Origin: Erythrobacter sp. EC-HK427
Lineage (GTDB): Bacteria > Pseudomonadota > Alphaproteobacteria > Sphingomonadales > Sphingomonadaceae
Length of the DNA: 64,000 nucleotides
Assembly (NCBI RefSeq): GCF_902498745.1
Contig: NZ_LR701479.1
Span: 2,256,881-2,320,880, forward strand
Reading direction: 5' to 3'
Shown: piece after piece, positions 17,068-23,770 of the stretch
Position numbering within the stretch: the stretch's first letter is position 1
Layout of the letters: every line of letters starts with the position of its first letter
Position numbers and translations under genes: made by a program
Notes under the pieces: model-generated
What the model was told of the DNA's origin: nothing
The model's input: only the letters and a program-made list of their open reading frames with translations
Database searches by the model: none

Positions 17068-17871
17068 ATGGATATGGCTGCCACACTGCGCGCATTGCCG
17101 CGTGCGGTGGAGCTGGCGTCTCCCGGTGTCCGCAACACGCGCTGGCAGCCGGGGCGCGCTGCTCCGCTGCATAGCGAGATTTTCGCCCCCGCTGCCGAGG
17201 CAAGCGGCGCGGGCGGGGCGCTGGCGCTCGCACTCGACGGGCTGAGGGCAAGGGCGGCAGCCAATGATGCAGGCGATGCCTCCGCGATAGAGGAGAAGGC
17301 GATCCTCTGGGTGCAGGAGGCACGCGCCATCAAGCTCGGCGGGCGGCCATACCGGGCAGGCCTGCCCGAAGACTGGCGCCACCGCCTGATCCATGTCGCC
17401 GCCAAGACGCCTGAAGACGCGCTTTTTGCGCTGGAGGAGGGCGTGCGGTGCCGTGATTTCGCCTGCGTCATCGGCGAAGTGGCGGGCAATCCGAAGGCCT
17501 TGGATTTCACCGCCTCGCGCCGCCTCAGCCTTGCTGCCGAGAAGCACGGCGTGCCGCTGTTCCTCGTCCGGCTCGATGCCGCGCCCGATCTCAGCTCTGC
17601 CCGGATGCGCTGGCGGCTGCGCGCTGCGCCTTCCGCTCCGCCTTTGTGGAATGCGAGCGCGCCGGGCAAAGCCGCCTGGCAGGCCGAGCTGTTCCGCGCC
17701 CGCAAGCATCCGCCGGGCGAATGGGTGCTGCGCGAGCAGGACGGGCGGCTGGTGCAGCTTGCTCTCTCCGGACAGGCAGAAGCGGAGGGGCGCGTTCCCC
17801 CCGCAAGTGTCACACCCACCGCTCCAGCCTCCGCAATCCTCTCCCCAGCAGGGGAGAGGGCGCATGGGTAA
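17068..17871 (+). CDS. imuA: SOS mutagenesis protein ImuA
   Basis: 267 residues, a RecA/SulA-like accessory protein that works with ImuB and DnaE2 in damage-induced mutagenesis. Matching segments are PLHSEIFAPAAEASGAGGALAL at the N-terminus, ILWVQEARAIKLGG, and DFACVIGEVAGNPKALDFTASRRL with PLFLVRLDA. AAAGGAG lies 10 bases before the ATG and the LexA box just upstream. The C-terminal tail, from about residue 243, is low complexity and is encoded partly by an inverted repeat at 17838-17860; it is probably an addition by repeat DNA. imuB begins 5 bases after the stop. Confidence 0.85.
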   Translation: MDMAATLRALPRAVELASPGVRNTRWQPGRAAPLHSEIFAPAAEASGAGGALALALDGLRARAAANDAGDASAIEEKAILWVQEARAIKLGGRPYRAGLPEDWRHRLIHVAAKTPEDALFALEEGVRCRDFACVIGEVAGNPKALDFTASRRLSLAAEKHGVPLFLVRLDAAPDLSSARMRWRLRAAPSAPPLWNASAPGKAAWQAELFRARKHPPGEWVLREQDGRLVQLALSGQAEAEGRVPPASVTPTAPASAILSPAGERAHG

Positions 17872-17876
17872 ACGCC

Positions 17877-19448
17877 ATGCCAGCACCCCGCCGCATCATG
17901 GCCATCTGGGCGCGCGAGCTGGCGTTCGACCGCTGGCGGCAGGCGCAGGGCTGTAAGCCGGGCGAGGGGGCGGATGCCGAGCCTACCGTCCTCATTGCCG
18001 AGACCGCGCACGGGCCGCGCATAGACGCCGCCAATGCCGCCGGGCGCGCAGCCGGCCCGGCGCGGGGCATGATGCTCGCCGATGCGCGCACGCTCTGCCC
18101 GCAGATCGTGGTGCATCCCGGCGATCCGGCGGCCGATCTCGCTTTCCTTCAGCGGCTGGCCATCTGGGCGCAGCGTTGGGGGCCGTGGAGCGCGATCGAC
18201 GCGCCCGACGGCCTGCTGGTGGATGTCAGCGCAGTGGCGCATCTGTTCGGCGGGGAGCGCCGCCTGCTCGCCGATGTCGCCGCCCGCACCGCCGCGCGCG
18301 GCCTCGTCACCAGCGCCGCTATTGCCCCCACGGCAGGCGCGGCCTGGGCGCTGGCGCATTACGCCAAAGCCGGTGCCACTATCAGCCATGAGGAGGACAT
18401 CGCCGCGCGGCTCGCCGATCTGCCCGTTGCCGCGCTGCGGCTTGATCATGATGTGCTGCTGGTGCTGCGCCGCCTCGGCCTCAAGCGGCTCGGCGATCTT
18501 GCCGGTATTGGCACCGGGCCGACCGGCCGCGACGCGCTGCACCGCCGCTTCCGCAACCGCAAGTCGCCCGCCGCCAACCCGCTGATCCGCATGGACCAGT
18601 TGAGCGGCCTTGTGCCCGAACCGCTGCTGCCGGTCATTCCGGTGACCCAGCCGCTCGTCCAGCGCCGCCTGATGGAGCCGATCCGCCACCGCGACCTGCT
18701 CGACACCGTGCTCGCCGATCTGGCGGAGGACATGGTGCGCGAGTTGGAAGCGCGGGGGCAGGGCGCGCGCCGCCTGCAGCTTGGCCTGTGGCGGGTGGAT
18801 GGCGAGGTGCTGCTGCGCGAGCTCGAACTCGCCGCTGCCACCCGCGATGCCGCGCATATGTGCCGCCTCTTCGCCGCCAAGCTGGACGATGTGGATGCAG
18901 GGTTCGGGATCGAGATGCTGCGCCTGCGCGCCAGTTGGGCCGAACCGCTGGCGCTGGGGCAGGCCGATCTGGAGGCAGCGGCAGAGGCGCATGGCACTTC
19001 GCTCTCCGCCTGCATCGACCGGCTGACGGCGCGGCTCGGGCCGGAGGCGGTGCAGCGGCCCGTGCCCCATGCCAGCCACCTGCCCGAACGCGCGCAACGC
19101 TGGCAGGCGCCGCTGGCCCCCGAACCCGCGATGCAGGGGGAACTCGCCTTCCACACGCGGCCCATCAAGCTGCTCGACCGGGCCGAGCGGATCGCGGTGC
19201 TGGCCGTTTGCGAGGCGGGCTACCCCCATCGCTTCCGCTGGCGCGGCGAGGTGCACGACATCGCCCGCGTCGAGGGGCCGGAGCGCATTGCGCCCGAATG
19301 GTGGCGCGAGCGCGGTGCGACCCGCCTGCGTGACTACTACCGCGTCGAAACCGCCAGCGGCGCGCGCTACTGGCTCTACCGCCTCGGCCTGCCCGGAGAC
19401 GGTCGCGGCGGCGAACCGGAGTGGTTCCTGCAAGGCCTGTTCGCGTGA
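17877..19448 (+). CDS. imuB: ImuB, catalytically inactive Y-family polymerase homolog
   Basis: 523 residues. ImuB is thought to link DnaE2 to the beta clamp and ImuA and is not itself a polymerase. The N-terminal half follows the Y-family fold (PARGMMLADARTLCP, LLVDVSAVAHLFGGE, RLGLKRLGDLAGI) but lacks the acidic catalytic set of active DinB enzymes. The C-terminal half ends with VEGPERIAPEWW and DYYRVETASGARYWLYR, typical of ImuB. The ATG at 17877 lies right behind the imuA stop; the long frame upstream is in the wrong context. Base composition is very GC-rich in third positions, which leaves a long antisense frame open. Confidence 0.88.
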   Translation: MPAPRRIMAIWARELAFDRWRQAQGCKPGEGADAEPTVLIAETAHGPRIDAANAAGRAAGPARGMMLADARTLCPQIVVHPGDPAADLAFLQRLAIWAQRWGPWSAIDAPDGLLVDVSAVAHLFGGERRLLADVAARTAARGLVTSAAIAPTAGAAWALAHYAKAGATISHEEDIAARLADLPVAALRLDHDVLLVLRRLGLKRLGDLAGIGTGPTGRDALHRRFRNRKSPAANPLIRMDQLSGLVPEPLLPVIPVTQPLVQRRLMEPIRHRDLLDTVLADLAEDMVRELEARGQGARRLQLGLWRVDGEVLLRELELAAATRDAAHMCRLFAAKLDDVDAGFGIEMLRLRASWAEPLALGQADLEAAAEAHGTSLSACIDRLTARLGPEAVQRPVPHASHLPERAQRWQAPLAPEPAMQGELAFHTRPIKLLDRAERIAVLAVCEAGYPHRFRWRGEVHDIARVEGPERIAPEWWRERGATRLRDYYRVETASGARYWLYRLGLPGDGRGGEPEWFLQGLFA

Positions 19449-19807
19449 TTCGCTGCCGAGGTGACTGCCTTCGCCTATGTTGCAAACCGCGCAACCTGAT
19501 ACACCTGTTACACAGTCCTGACGGACAAATTTCGCCTGTCCGCAAAGGGCCGCAAGCCCGCGGAAAATTGCAGGAAGGCGGCTGCGAAGGGAGTGTGCCA
19601 TCACCATGCAGGCCGGCCAAGCGCAATCATGGCGTGTAGGAAAGTCCCGTGCCGTGGTCACACAGGCATAGAGGAGCGTTGATGGGACAGGGCCAAAGAC
19701 CGCACTTGGCGAATCTCTCATAAGAACATAAGTAGAACATATGCGTATGATCGATCCGTTTTGGCGGCTTGCCGCATTGGCGGGTGCGCGGTTGGGGGAG
19801 GGTGGCT
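19449..19807. other. Intergenic region between imuB and dnaE2
   Basis: 359 bases without a convincing gene. It holds a small hairpin (CGGACA ... TGTCCG, about 19522-19542), the LexA box at 19724-19738, and a 24-codon open frame at 19741-19815 that overlaps the dnaE2 start. The GGGGGAGG ribosome-binding site for dnaE2 is at 19795-19802. I see no tRNA, terminator with a T-tract, or conserved RNA in it. Confidence 0.5.
19724..19738 (+). promoter_or_regulatory. LexA (SOS) box upstream of dnaE2
   Basis: GAAC-N7-GAAC with spacer ATAAGTA, matching the direct-repeat operator of alphaproteobacterial LexA in reverse orientation. It is about 70 bases before the dnaE2 start. Together with the imuA box it shows that the two halves of the mutagenesis cassette have separate LexA-controlled promoters. 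Confidence 0.85.
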
Positions 19808-22800
19808 GTGCCTGATGCTCACCCGACGCCCGAGAAGCGCCGGATCGCGCTCGATCCTGACAGTATCGCTGCGCCCGCCCGCGCACCGTTTGTCGAGCTG
19901 GGGCTGGTGTCGTGCTTCACATTCCTGCGCGGGGCGAGCGATGCGGTCGATCTGGTGATGACCGCGCGCCAGCTCGGCTATGACGCGCTGGGGATTGCCG
20001 ATGCCAATTCGATGGCGGGCGTGGTGCGCGTGCATAGCGAGGCGAAAACGCTCAAACTGCGTCCGGTGATCGGCACGCGGATCGAGACGGTGGAGGGGCT
20101 CGCCTTCCTCGCTTACCCGAAGAACCGCGCGGCCTATGGGCACCTGTGCCGCCTTATCAGTGCGGGCCGGATGGCCAAGCTGGACGGCGAATGGCAGGAC
20201 AAGGGCGCGTGCGAGATATCGCTGGCAATGCTGGCCGAACATAGCGCGGAGGTGCAGCTGATCCTCCTCCCGCCGCCCGATCTGGCGCGGGTTTTCACCG
20301 TGACGCTGCCGAGCAATGTGGTGCCGTTTCCGGGCTTGGGTTCACGCGGAGACGCGGAGGGGTGGAGAATCGCCGAAGGCGAGAACCGGAATATTCGCTC
20401 GCAGAGGCGCAGAGGCGCAGAGGAGTCGCGCGAGTCCTCTGCGCCTCTGCGCCTCTGCGAGCGTAAAAATGAAAAGCGGCTGCGCCGCGAAGAAGACATC
20501 TCAGAGTCTCCGCGTTTCGGCGTGGGTCAATATCCTTTCTCGCTGCGCGAAATCACCAAACCCTTTCCCGAACTCCTGCGCCACCTTCGCGATGCGCTGC
20601 CGGGGCTGAACCACCTCGCTGCCAGCTATCTTTATCGCGGGGACGACATCGCGCGGATCGAGCGGCTTGATATGCTGGCGCGGGCGAACGGGATGGCGCT
20701 GCTCGCCACCAATGATGTGCATTACCACGCGCCCGAGCGGCGGCCCTTGCAGGATGTGATGACTGCGATCCGCCACAAGACGACGGTGGCGCGCGCGGGG
20801 CAGTTGCTCCACGCCAATGCCGAACGGCACCTGAAGAGCCCTGAAGAGATGGTCGCGCTGTTCGCCCGCTGGCCGCACGCCATCGCCGCCGCACGCGCGG
20901 TGGCAGATGCGTGCACCTTCAGCCTCGACGAACTGCGCTACGAATATCCCGAGGAGATTTATCCCGCCGGCATGGGGCCGCAGGAATATCTCGAATGCGC
21001 CACCTGGTGGGGGGCGCAGGAACGCTATCCCGGCGGCATACCGGACAGCGTATTCAACACGTTGGAACGGGAGCTTGCGCTGATTTCCAAGATGAATCTG
21101 GCGCGCTATTTCCTCACCATCAAGGACATTGTCGATTACGCCCGCACCGGGGTGGAGCCGCCGATTCTGTGCCAGGGGCGCGGCAGTGCGGCCAATTCGG
21201 CGGTGTGCTTCTGCCTCGGCATCACCAATGTCGACCCGGCGCATCACCAACTGCTGTTCGACCGGTTTATCTCCGAAGACCGCAAGGAACCGCCCGATAT
21301 CGATGTCGATTTCGAGCACGAGCGGCGCGAGGAGGTGATCCAATATCTCTACCGCAAATATGGCCGCCACCGCGCCGGATTGTGCGCCACGGTGATCCAT
21401 TACCGCCCGCGCATGGCGATCCGCGAAGTCGGCAAGGCGATGGGCCTGTCCGAAGATGTGACCGGCGCGCTCGCCCGCACCGTGTGGGGCGGGTGGGGGC
21501 GCGAGATCGGGGAGGATCACGCGGCGGAAACCGGGATGGATTTGACCGATCCGCATCTGCGCCGGGTTCTCGCTTTGACGCGCCAAATGGTGGGAATGCC
21601 GCGCCATCTCAGCCAGCACGTGGGCGGCTTCATCCTCACCGAAGGCGCGCTGACCGAGACGGTGCCGATCGGCAATGGCGCGATGCCCGACCGCAGCTTT
21701 ATCGAATGGGACAAGGACGATATCGAGGCCTTGGGCATCCTCAAGGTCGATGTGCTGGCGCTGGGAATGCTGACCTGCATCCGCAAATGCCTCGACCTGC
21801 TCGAACAGCATCACGACCGCGCGCTGACGCTGGCGAGCGTGCCGCGCGAAGATCCCGAAACCTATGCCATGCTGCGCAAGGGGGATTCGCTGGGGGTGTT
21901 CCAGGTGGAGAGCCGCGCGCAGATGAATATGCTCCCGCGCCTGCGCCCGCGCGAATTCTACGATCTGGTGATCCAGGTCGCCATCGTGCGGCCCGGCCCG
22001 ATCCAGGGCGATATGGTGCATCCCTATCTCAAACGCCGCCGCGGGGCAGAGCCGGTTATCATCCCCGCGCCTTCGCCCGAACATGGCCCGCCGGACGAGC
22101 TGTCGAATATTTTGCAGCGGACCTTGGGCGTGCCGATCTTTCAGGAGCAGGCGATGAAAATCGCGCTCGATGCGGCGAAATTCTCCTCCAAGGAAGCCAA
22201 CCGGTTGCGCAAGGCGATGGCGACCTTCCGCAGCCGCGGCATGGTGCACGAATTGGAGGATATGATGGTCGGGCGGATGGTGGCGCGCGGCTATGATCCC
22301 GATTTTGCCGAACGCTGCTTCAACCAGATCAAGGGCTTTGGCGAATACGGCTTCCCCGAAAGCCACGCGGCCAGCTTTGCGCATCTGGTCTATGTGTCGA
22401 GCTGGCTCAAATGCCACTTCCCCGGTGCGTTTGCCTGCGCGCTGCTCAATTCGCAGCCGATGGGCTTTTATGCGCCTGCGCAAATCGTACGCGACGCGCG
22501 CGAGCACGGGGTGACGGTGCTGCCGCCCGACGTGAATTGCTCGGAATGGGACTGCACGCTGGAGCCTGTGGCGAATGATGGATTGGTGCGCTCACAGAGG
22601 CACAGAGGCACAGAGGAGGGCGTGCAATCCGCCGAAGGCGATGAAGGCAGTTTCGCGCAGAGTCCGCAGAGGACGCAGAGGGAAGGGGATGGTGCTATTG
22701 CCTCTGCGTCCTCTGCGGACTCTGCGCGAAATACTGACTGCGCCTGCGGCGCGGGCACGAATTCCTCTGTGCCTCTGTGCCTCTGTGAGCGTCCAGAATC

Positions 22801-23770
22801 CCTCCGCGTCTCCGCGTCTCCGCGTGAATCAAATCCCGACACTGGCCGCCAGGACAAACACCTCGCTCTCCGCCTCGGCTTGCGGCAGATCGACGGGTTG
22901 CCCGAGCACGTTGCCGCGCAATTGCTCGCCGCGCGCGCGGCGGACGGGGTGTTTGCCGATGTAGCCGAGCTGCGCGACCGGGCGCGCATACCCGTCGCAC
23001 ATATCGAGCGGCTCGCCAGCGCCGATGCGTTCGGTTCGATGGATATGAGCAGGCGGCAGGCCCTGTGGGATGCGCGCAGCCTGATCGGCAGCGCCGATCT
23101 GCCGCTGTTCGCCCATGCCGATGAGCGGGACGAGGGGGCCGAACGCCGCCGCGCGATCCTGCCCGCCATGCCGTTATCCGAAGAAGTCGTCGCCGATTAC
23201 CAGACCACACGCCTCAGCCTGAAGGCGCATCCGATGGCTTTCCTGCGCCCCGCCTTGGCCGAGCGTGGCTTTGTGCGCGCCTGCGATCTGCGCAACCGCA
23301 AGTTCCGTTCCATGGTTCACGTCGCGGGCGTAGTGCTGATCCGCCAGCGGCCCGGCAGCGCGAAGGGCGTGTGCTTCATCACGCTGGAGGACGAGACCGG
23401 GGTTATCAATCTGGTCGTCTGGCCCGATCTCAAAGAGAAGCAGCGGCGCGTGGTGATGGGATCACGCCTGATGGAAGTGCGCGGGCGGGTGGAGTATGAT
23501 GACGAGGTGATCCACGTTATCGCCCAACATATGACCGATGCGACGCACCAATTGCACGCCCTCTCCGACGATCTGCTCAATGCACCGCTGGCGCGCGCCG
23601 ATCATGTCACCAGCCCGTTGCCGCAGGGGCGCAATTTGACCAGCCTCACCAGCGAGGAGCGGCGCGACAGGAAGGCTATCCGCCCGCGCGATCTGGTGGA
23701 TGATCTGGGGCACGCGGCACGCCATCCGCGCGATGTGCGGATCATTCCCAAATCGCGGGATTTCCACTGA
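19808..23770 (+). CDS. dnaE2: Error-prone DNA polymerase DnaE2 with two repeat-derived insertions
   Basis: About 1320 residues; family members are usually near 1050-1150. A PHP domain (FVELGLVSCFTFLRGASDA onward) is followed by the polymerase core, with catalytic aspartates in PPDIDVDFEHERREEV near residue 497, and an OB-fold near residues 1168-1250 (VAGVVLIRQRPGSAKGVCF). It carries out mutagenic translesion synthesis with ImuA and ImuB. Two low-complexity stretches, about residues 178-242 and 928-1010, are encoded by palindromic repeat DNA and keep the frame. The start is GTG at 19808 with GGGGGAGG 5 bases upstream; GTG at 19802 is possible. The stop overlaps the next ATG (TGATG). Confidence 0.9.
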   Translation: MPDAHPTPEKRRIALDPDSIAAPARAPFVELGLVSCFTFLRGASDAVDLVMTARQLGYDALGIADANSMAGVVRVHSEAKTLKLRPVIGTRIETVEGLAFLAYPKNRAAYGHLCRLISAGRMAKLDGEWQDKGACEISLAMLAEHSAEVQLILLPPPDLARVFTVTLPSNVVPFPGLGSRGDAEGWRIAEGENRNIRSQRRRGAEESRESSAPLRLCERKNEKRLRREEDISESPRFGVGQYPFSLREITKPFPELLRHLRDALPGLNHLAASYLYRGDDIARIERLDMLARANGMALLATNDVHYHAPERRPLQDVMTAIRHKTTVARAGQLLHANAERHLKSPEEMVALFARWPHAIAAARAVADACTFSLDELRYEYPEEIYPAGMGPQEYLECATWWGAQERYPGGIPDSVFNTLERELALISKMNLARYFLTIKDIVDYARTGVEPPILCQGRGSAANSAVCFCLGITNVDPAHHQLLFDRFISEDRKEPPDIDVDFEHERREEVIQYLYRKYGRHRAGLCATVIHYRPRMAIREVGKAMGLSEDVTGALARTVWGGWGREIGEDHAAETGMDLTDPHLRRVLALTRQMVGMPRHLSQHVGGFILTEGALTETVPIGNGAMPDRSFIEWDKDDIEALGILKVDVLALGMLTCIRKCLDLLEQHHDRALTLASVPREDPETYAMLRKGDSLGVFQVESRAQMNMLPRLRPREFYDLVIQVAIVRPGPIQGDMVHPYLKRRRGAEPVIIPAPSPEHGPPDELSNILQRTLGVPIFQEQAMKIALDAAKFSSKEANRLRKAMATFRSRGMVHELEDMMVGRMVARGYDPDFAERCFNQIKGFGEYGFPESHAASFAHLVYVSSWLKCHFPGAFACALLNSQPMGFYAPAQIVRDAREHGVTVLPPDVNCSEWDCTLEPVANDGLVRSQRHRGTEEGVQSAEGDEGSFAQSPQRTQREGDGAIASASSADSARNTDCACGAGTNSSVPLCLCERPESLRVSASPRESNPDTGRQDKHLALRLGLRQIDGLPEHVAAQLLAARAADGVFADVAELRDRARIPVAHIERLASADAFGSMDMSRRQALWDARSLIGSADLPLFAHADERDEGAERRRAILPAMPLSEEVVADYQTTRLSLKAHPMAFLRPALAERGFVRACDLRNRKFRSMVHVAGVVLIRQRPGSAKGVCFITLEDETGVINLVVWPDLKEKQRRVVMGSRLMEVRGRVEYDDEVIHVIAQHMTDATHQLHALSDDLLNAPLARADHVTSPLPQGRNLTSLTSEERRDRKAIRPRDLVDDLGHAARHPRDVRIIPKSRDFH
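20339..20531. repeat. Palindromic repeat insertion 1 inside dnaE2
   Basis: A perfect 29-bp inverted repeat (20396-20424 with 20435-20463, loop of 10 bases) is built from an 8-nt unit, GCAGAGGC, repeated in tandem. It is flanked by weaker, outer inverted arms: TTCACGCGGAGACGCGGAG at 20341-20359 against an imperfect copy at about 20509-20527. The block is translated in frame as part of the DnaE2 PHP domain (residues about 178-242) and has no stop codon. The flanking protein sequence (VVPFPGLG / PFSLREITKPFPEL) continues as expected for the family. Confidence 0.85.
22589..22836. repeat. Nested palindromic repeat insertion 2 inside dnaE2
   Basis: The outer perfect 29-bp inverted repeat is 22589-22617 with 22763-22791. 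It encloses an inner perfect 31-bp inverted repeat, 22651-22681 with 22701-22731. The outer arms use the 8-nt unit ACAGAGGC and the inner arms a related GCAGAG unit. Directly behind, 22801-22827 holds three copies of the unit TCCGCGTC, the reverse complement of the outer arm of insertion 1. The whole block is read in frame, adding about 83 residues between the polymerase core and the following helix-hairpin-helix region. Confidence 0.85.

Follow-up and report, generated by a model that had tools for sequence, protein, structure and literature searches.

The dnaE2 gene of Erythrobacter sp. EC-HK427 contains two blocks of nested inverted repeats within its reading frame, which raises the question of what these structures are and how they came to lie inside a protein gene. 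The window analysed here is the whole stretch of 64,000 nucleotides from contig NZ_LR701479.1 (positions 2,256,881 to 2,320,880); its genome is designated G000, other G numbers denoting the compared genomes. On balance, we favour reading the dnaE2 insert as a concentric three-layer palindrome, formed by gene-less copies of a nuclease-linked mobile element family.

Layered palindromes within dnaE2

The dnaE2 frame corresponds to a 1333-aa ORF in the open-frame listing, which NCBIfam identifies as an error-prone DNA polymerase at 1357.3 bits, over a cut-off of 939. For the second block (22589 to 22836), the initial annotation had described a perfect 29-nt inverted repeat enclosing a perfect 31-nt one, in frame and followed by a third run of 8-nt units. 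Both repeats were located, the ORF continues uninterrupted through the block, and the third run consists of three units (about 22801 to 22829). Comparison with the relative G021, in which both outer arms are present, identifies it as the 3' half of a third layer, O1, that lies outside the other two. Block 1 (about 20340 to 20530) has a similar layered plan. The features are as follows.

19769 to 23770, + strand: dnaE2, error-prone DNA polymerase, frame open across both inserts
20340 to 20360, + strand: block 1, outer (O1) 5' arm, GTTCACGCGGAGACGCGGAGG
20370 to 20382, + strand: block 1, 5' small hairpin TCGCCGAAGGCGA
20396 to 20429, + strand: block 1, inner (M) 5' arm (locus L022, 1526-1559)
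20430 to 20463, - strand: block 1, inner (M) 3' arm (locus L022, 1560-1593)
20476 to 20488, + strand: block 1, 3' small hairpin GCGGCTGCGCCGC
20500 to 20530, - strand: block 1, outer (O1) 3' arm, degenerate (locus L022, by eye, limits approximate)
22589 to 22617, + strand: block 2, M 5' arm (29-nt repeat)
22630 to 22640, + strand: block 2, 5' small hairpin CGCCGAAGGCG
22651 to 22681, + strand: block 2, I 5' arm (31-nt repeat)
22701 to 22731, - strand: block 2, I 3' arm
22740 to 22752, + strand: block 2, 3' small hairpin GCGCCTGCGGCGC
22763 to 22791, - strand: block 2, M 3' arm
22801 to 22829, - strand: block 2, 3' half of the outermost (O1) layer, without a 5' partner in G000

In block 2 the two small hairpins thus occupy the space between the M and I layers. 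When mismatches were allowed, its arm pairs lengthened to 37 nt (92% identity) and 34 nt (97%), and folding of the block as DNA gave z = -17.06, with none of 200 shuffles equally stable. A unit-pair pattern tolerating two mismatches matched the whole window 10 times against 5.4 expected, which is not above chance, and stricter unit patterns were therefore adopted. A stricter pattern gave 4 matches in the window against 0.05 expected, all of them in block 1, and four exact unit-pair matches within block 2 form inverted-repeat pairs. A phage collection queried with the 248-nt insert returned no match.

Both blocks are insertions, as had been proposed, since the corresponding dnaE2 loops are short in most relatives of the genus. 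Loop 2 measures 300 nt in G000; among the 28 other genus loci that could be read, 20 have a loop of 12-69 nt and eight one of 90-312 nt. The loops look permissive, in line with the suggestion of relaxed constraint, because other palindrome families fill several of them in other species of the genus. The proposal of successive layering stood only as regards insertion, and the stepwise order stays a candidate reading: among 29 readable loci, none had a loop 2 with just the outer or just the inner layer.

Nesting is not confined to G000: other genomes also have palindromes that enclose a second one, with O1 outside M in some cases and M outside O1 in others. The inner and outer palindromes have one common centre: across 13 nested pairs, which are not all independent, the left and right gaps are almost equal (combined p 7e-6). 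Layered elements are also present in the one-contig genome G010, where the GxxExxY gene described below is absent.

Most GxxExxY nuclease genes lie between inverted arms

Further copies of the repeat, whose existence the initial annotation had made a test of its reading, do occur in G000, where 17 related loci were examined and the family numbers about 20 copies. Of the 17, all but the two dnaE2 inserts lie outside long open frames. Each arm is a row of about three 8-9-nt units (CRCRRAG), inverted between the two arms of a pair, and looks like a protein-binding array; palindromes built of CACAGAG, CGCGGAG or CACGAAG units were found in many phyla. High copy number was rejected: in a sample of G000 taken at even intervals and totalling 400 kb, there was one unit cluster (a palindrome), against one hit in a shuffled copy. 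The small hairpins were rejected as abundant independent REPs, this sample containing two hairpins and zero pairs.

A fuller form of the element, consisting of an arm, a GxxExxY gene and an inverted arm, lies in G000 at C2:2155369-2155820, which precedes the window by about 101 kb. M arms surround both this gene and gene-less copies. For the O1, I and O2 arm types, G000 lacks a matching gene. The gene scores 124.1 bits against cut-offs of 35 (TIGR04256) and 22 (PF13366), and PF13366 (PDDEXK_3) is its sole match in Pfam. The PD-(D/E)XK residues D62, E72, K74, Q86 and Y90 are invariant in 23 aligned sequences, an alignment from which L118 and L119, which seem to lack the catalytic D, were excluded. 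The fold is nearest to Cas4 and lambda-type exonucleases; a PDB sequence search found nothing at E 1, and PADLOC and PHROGs gave only weak Cas4- and RT-associated matches. No paper linking GxxExxY to flanking arrays was found in the open-licence literature searched.

The gene and the arms are associated. In the genus, nine TIGR04256 genes were found in 6 of 40 genomes, and all nine lie between inverted unit arrays. In a coordinate-based flank test, with intervals elsewhere in the same loci as controls and two of 139 loci having too little flank, the 99th percentile, set from 1214 control intervals, was surpassed by 110 of the 137 testable loci and the control maximum by 69; 27 failed, including one of two archaeal loci. 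A control with mismatched flanks was discarded because all arms resemble one another. The fabD-fabG gap measures 0-43 nt in 11 gene-less genomes with a readable fabD end, against 490 and 496 nt in two GxxExxY carriers (L251, at 698 a reading artefact, and 16 unreadable rows being excluded).

Of 14 named genomes with the gene, 11 showed dispersed arrays, in a scan whose reversed-pattern control partly reads the same arrays and so offers no clean background; the same holds for another array scan, with a control almost as high as the pattern, while in two further scans the controls were near zero. Arrays accompany the gene in five of six genus carriers and occur in one of the 34 other genomes. 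Across the phylum, at least three array hits were present in 26 of 43 gene carriers (the other 17 having fewer) and in 18 of 354 genomes without the gene; inside single families, gene and arrays are only weakly associated (p 0.056 and 0.09). In three of those 18 array-bearing gene-less genomes the hits are confined to one strand, and the broader Pfam model PF13366 matched in none of the 18. Arm type clusters on the GxxExxY protein tree (8 changes against a shuffled mean of 14.0), with the outgroup contributing to this overall clustering and O1, M1 and O3 not clustered individually.

Proposed movement of the palindromes and competing readings

In the mechanism that we propose, a small nuclease of the Cas4/RecB type, with a PD-(D/E)XK core, would recognise the unit arrays or their hairpin and cut there, and the short palindromes would spread through copying or repair. 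Fresh copies would preferentially enter palindromes already in place, at their centre, giving rise to nesting, and those in dnaE2 would occupy two loops that tolerate in-frame inserts. More tentatively, and with a fair chance of being too broad a claim, GxxExxY may define a widespread class of mobile palindromes, in which a Cas4-like nuclease would recognise its own 8-9-nt arrays and insert gene-less copies at the apex of hairpins already present.

Alternatively, the palindromes could be structures kept by the host, such as terminators, regulators or protein-binding sites, with GxxExxY merely one of several enclosed things and no nuclease-driven movement. The near-absence of the G000 loci from long open frames fits this proposal, as do the arrays in genomes without the gene and the persistence of arms and small hairpins where spacers differ; according to a 2026 survey (PMC13155455), perfect inverted repeats generally combine conserved arms with more spacer substitutions. 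In the G000 group the inter-arm spacers are mostly unrelated, which is odd for recent copying, and their similarity is if anything overstated because the comparison counted masked letters as matches. Nevertheless, the gene-arm association rises far above control intervals, and in G461 the GxxExxY gene is flanked by two almost identical whole palindromes, the inner part being strongly common to four of seven other copies. Layered in-frame inserts, in loops of which most relatives have only short versions, are also hard to explain as host sites, and we consider this explanation unlikely. Still less probable is that another enzyme moves the palindromes and that GxxExxY is a passenger or regulator, as might be suggested by the array-bearing genomes lacking PF13366 and by an arm pair in G183 (L352, by eye) around a different short ORF. 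Against it stand the nine of nine genus genes located between arms and the result of a transposase search that covered Y1 only: PF01797 has no match in G000 and the RAYT-type Y1 domain occurs in just 3 of 40 genus genomes. RAYT was ruled out as the mobiliser because G000 has no Y1 domain.

A further possibility, which has more in its favour although we do not prefer it, is that the dnaE2 layers go back to a single ancient insertion within the genus, since lost in most lines, and would therefore be uninformative on repeated insertion. Layered inserts occupy both loops in 2 of 30 aligned genus loci, from the non-sister species G000 and G021, with the same loop 2 order (O1, M, I), and G020 has a single-layer palindrome in loop 1 and an 11-nt M-like stretch in loop 2. 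However, the dnaE2 core tree places G000 with G024 and G002, and G021 with G020 (supports 100/99 and 100/100), and in both G024 and G002 an unrelated palindrome occupies the two loops.

Comparison with known systems

The nearest parallel to the nuclease-linked family is the REP/BIME and RAYT system. PMC2817692 describes RAYT (TnpA-REP) as a small gene of nuclease type, flanked by a pair of palindromic repeats in inverted orientation, in genomes with related gene-less palindromes; repeat type is tied to gene type, and the gene stays at one place as its repeats change. GxxExxY is alike in each respect, including its position between inverted repeats. The enzymes differ, RAYT being a Y1/HUH (IS200/IS605-like) transposase and GxxExxY a PD-(D/E)XK nuclease, as do the repeats, the GxxExxY-linked arms being 8-9-nt unit arrays in few copies and nested on one centre; by eye, the arms showed no REP-like GT(A/G)G head. 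Rickettsia palindromic elements, as presented in PMC10969869, also lie in frame in protein genes. In-frame insertion is infrequent in the G000 family, which differs further in its layered arms and link to a nuclease gene. Like MITEs, the G000 elements are short, gene-less and share inverted ends (M arms) with a gene-bearing relative; they differ in having unit arrays as ends and no known transposase. The gene enclosed in the fuller element clearly belongs to the GxxExxY family (TIGR04256/PF13366), a name that gives only a motif.

These observations suggest that the repeat family enclosing a small nuclease gene is a little-noticed kind of mobile DNA. They provide a testable role for widely distributed nucleases whose family is named after a motif, and account for the palindromes of CACAGAG, CGCGGAG and CACGAAG units across many phyla. 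From the centre that nested copies share, the predicted target is the hairpin apex, a prediction open to in vitro testing. The pairing of GxxExxY with palindromes may solve, by means of a different enzyme fold, the same problem that RAYT solves for REPs. If the wider class is real, genomes would gather concentric nested palindromes, at times within protein loops, and a REP/RAYT-like system would have arisen independently, on another nuclease fold, in many bacterial phyla and perhaps in archaea.

Layered palindromes in two loops of dnaE2

The two inserts of dnaE2, which encodes an error-prone DNA polymerase, are inserted palindromes nested on the same centre, with arms made of inverted arrays of 8-9-nt units. 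In loop 2 (block 2), the perfect 29-nt and 31-nt inverted repeats reported in the initial annotation were confirmed, and both are in frame, the dnaE2 reading frame being uninterrupted. The layers are as follows, the arm families being named O1, M, I and O2 in the present analysis.

22589-22617/22763-22791: perfect 29-nt inverted repeat, block 2
22651-22681/22701-22731: perfect 31-nt inverted repeat, block 2
Block 2: I inside M, with small hairpins in the gap between these two layers; of the surrounding O1, the 3' half only
Block 1 (loop 1): O1 around M, with hairpins between

The arm-finding script detected the M arms of block 1 and missed its degenerate O1 arms. Folded as DNA, block 2 gave a z of -17.06; on the Pfam map, the finger and HHH domains flank loop 2. 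Just upstream of dnaE2, window positions 17646-19448 hold a Y-family polymerase-like ORF (Pfam IMS, IMS_C, DUF6504), an arrangement like that of imuB-dnaE2 cassettes.

A dnaE2 search of 61 genomes found a match in 60, and 30 loci among the matches listed were aligned. Loop 2, readable in 29 of them, measures 300 nt in the genome under study (G000) and 312 nt in G021, 12-69 nt in 20 loci and 90-180 nt in the remaining seven. G021 carries layered inserts in both loops, with both O1 arms present in loop 2. Because G021 has 24 nt more than G000 between the conserved Trp codon and the M arm (manual count), the 5' O1 arm of block 2 has likely been lost in G000. In G020, the sister of G021, loop 1 contains a single M palindrome of one layer, and an 11-nt piece of loop 2 resembles M. 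In a dnaE2 core tree with the loops removed, G000 groups with G024 and G002 (100/99) and G021 with G020 (100/100); given this separation, the layered inserts of G000 and G021 would be independent, or else repeatedly lost.

Perfect inverted arms of at least 10 nt occur in 8 of 30 loop-1 and 7 of 29 loop-2 sequences among the loci listed, several belonging to other palindrome families (e.g. CCCCTCCCGC..GCGGGAGGGG), seen in the following loci.

L049, L050, L053, L068, L071, L073: dnaE2 loops of G024, G002, G010, G009, G034 and G016, respectively

Since foreign families occupy the same loops in other species, these two loops look, from sequence comparison, like general acceptors of palindromes.

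Dispersed copies and a gene between arms

The palindromes form a dispersed family. The initial annotation had read block 2 as a record of successive insertions; related sites across G000 were recovered by BLAST and unit patterns. Long open frames (at least 100 codons on both sides) surround only two of 17 G000 loci, the dnaE2 inserts; the 17 take in the gene unit described below and a single one-sided array. An even 400-kb sample added one palindrome, and there is one further I array, for a total of about 20 copies in an incomplete census.

Nesting also extends to other copies: a script run on 38 loci found 13 nested pairs in 12 of them, and layer plans in G034, G021, G010, G006 and G016 comprise O1 around M, M around O1, M around I and single layers. 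Left/right gaps in the 13 pairs (33/31, 37/35, 31/34, 41/44, 34/34, 29/28, 33/31, 9/18, 8/10, 65/69, 46/39, 8/14, 48/40) were more equal than under uniform placement (combined p 7e-6, the pairs not all being independent). In the G000 group, spacers between arms are largely unrelated, whereas arms and hairpins persist. Four gene-less elements were read in G454, with a second inverted repeat in two by script and in all four by eye.

One G000 arm pair encloses an ORF of 142 aa, a GxxExxY gene (TIGR04256/PF13366, PDDEXK_3) of the PD-(D/E)XK nuclease family. The genus has nine TIGR04256 genes, in 6 of 40 genomes; inverted arrays flank all nine (scores 20-31), and six stand just before fabG (assigned by NCBIfam in G000, by resemblance elsewhere). 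Across 30 loci among the matches listed (39 genomes matched; FabD recognised by motif only), the fabD-fabG gap is 0-43 nt in eleven gene-less genomes with a readable fabD end and 490 and 496 nt in two carriers. Arm families at this position vary from species to species. At L078, between fabD and fabG of G022, an in-frame stop interrupts the domain of GxxExxY at an early point, with the arms still present.

Association of arms with GxxExxY genes

Such arms are strongly associated with GxxExxY genes beyond the genus. Above the cut-off were 43 of 397 phylum genomes, and a genome-contig scan gave at least 80 loci, the best 80 being taken, whose titles span many bacterial phyla and two archaea (found via conserved peptides of seven proteins, and so not a random sample). 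For each locus, the top-scoring inverted repeat formed by the two 250-nt flanks was compared with 1214 control intervals (99th percentile 17, maximum 23): 110 of 137 testable loci exceeded the percentile (49/59 whole-genome, 61/78 contig loci) and 69 the maximum. Of the two archaeal loci, L222 passed (20) and L157 failed (11). Fourteen of the best 80 genomes were picked by eye because their arms were suitable; array hits occurred in 11 of these and numbered five or more in ten. In G461 the gene sits between two nearly identical whole palindromes, whose inner part (including a hairpin, possibly a separate repeat) is common strongly to four of seven other copies, moderately to one and not to two. 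In L118 and L119 (G445, G384) the GxxExxY domain is part of a long frame (624 codons) without flanking arms (scores 10, 12); L118 lacks the catalytic Asp (by eye).

With three hits or more defining an array-bearing genome, the counts were as follows.

Array-bearing genomes among carriers and non-carriers of the gene
Genus: 5/6 vs 1/34
Phylum: 26/43 vs 18/354 (overall p inflated by relatedness)
Family f46: 18/22 vs 9/17 (p 0.056)
Family f1: 5/8 vs 3/13 (p 0.09)
Outside f46 and f1: 3/13 vs 6/324 (p 0.003)

The PF13366 profile matched none of the 18 array-only phylum genomes; in three of these (G439, G328, G297) array matches are confined to one strand. A protein tree of 21 rows showed clustering by arm type (8 changes vs a shuffled mean of 14.0; 0/200 as low); the outgroup counted there as a single label, M2 and O2 were the only types clustered when taken singly, and few branches had good support. 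Elsewhere, L352 (G183 C159) has a different short ORF inside an arm pair in a genome without PF13366, L351 (G131 C34) has unit arrays within tandem repeats of an open reading frame, and L345 (G199 C1) has another palindromic repeat (CCGTCATGCCGG...) inside arm pairs; G199 shows 111 and 5 array hits and no PF13366 match.

The nuclease and its proposed part in spreading the palindromes

All 23 aligned GxxExxY sequences share the residues D, E, K and Q...Y. Among structural matches to the predicted model (mean pLDDT 94.5), Cas4 SSO0001 came first (best E 2.0e-3, probability 1.00; no match below 0.001), followed by AdnAB and lambda-type exonucleases; PADLOC gave weak matches to an RT-associated PD-(D/E)XK protein and Cas4.

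TIGR04256 or PF13366 turned up in one paper of the open-licence PubMed Central literature, where GxxExxY had passing mentions only, PDDEXK_3 together with inverted repeats had no report, no paper linking the gene with flanking arrays was found, and the unit sequences gave unrelated matches only. Features used for comparison came from PMC2817692 (RAYT) and PMC10969869 (RPE), and a remark on arms and spacers of inverted repeats from PMC13155455.

The many array-bearing genomes without the gene, and the spacer divergence in the G000 group, do not fit easily with movement by the nuclease. In the reading proposed here, the nuclease would be the agent that spreads the palindromes, and hairpin apices may be the targets.
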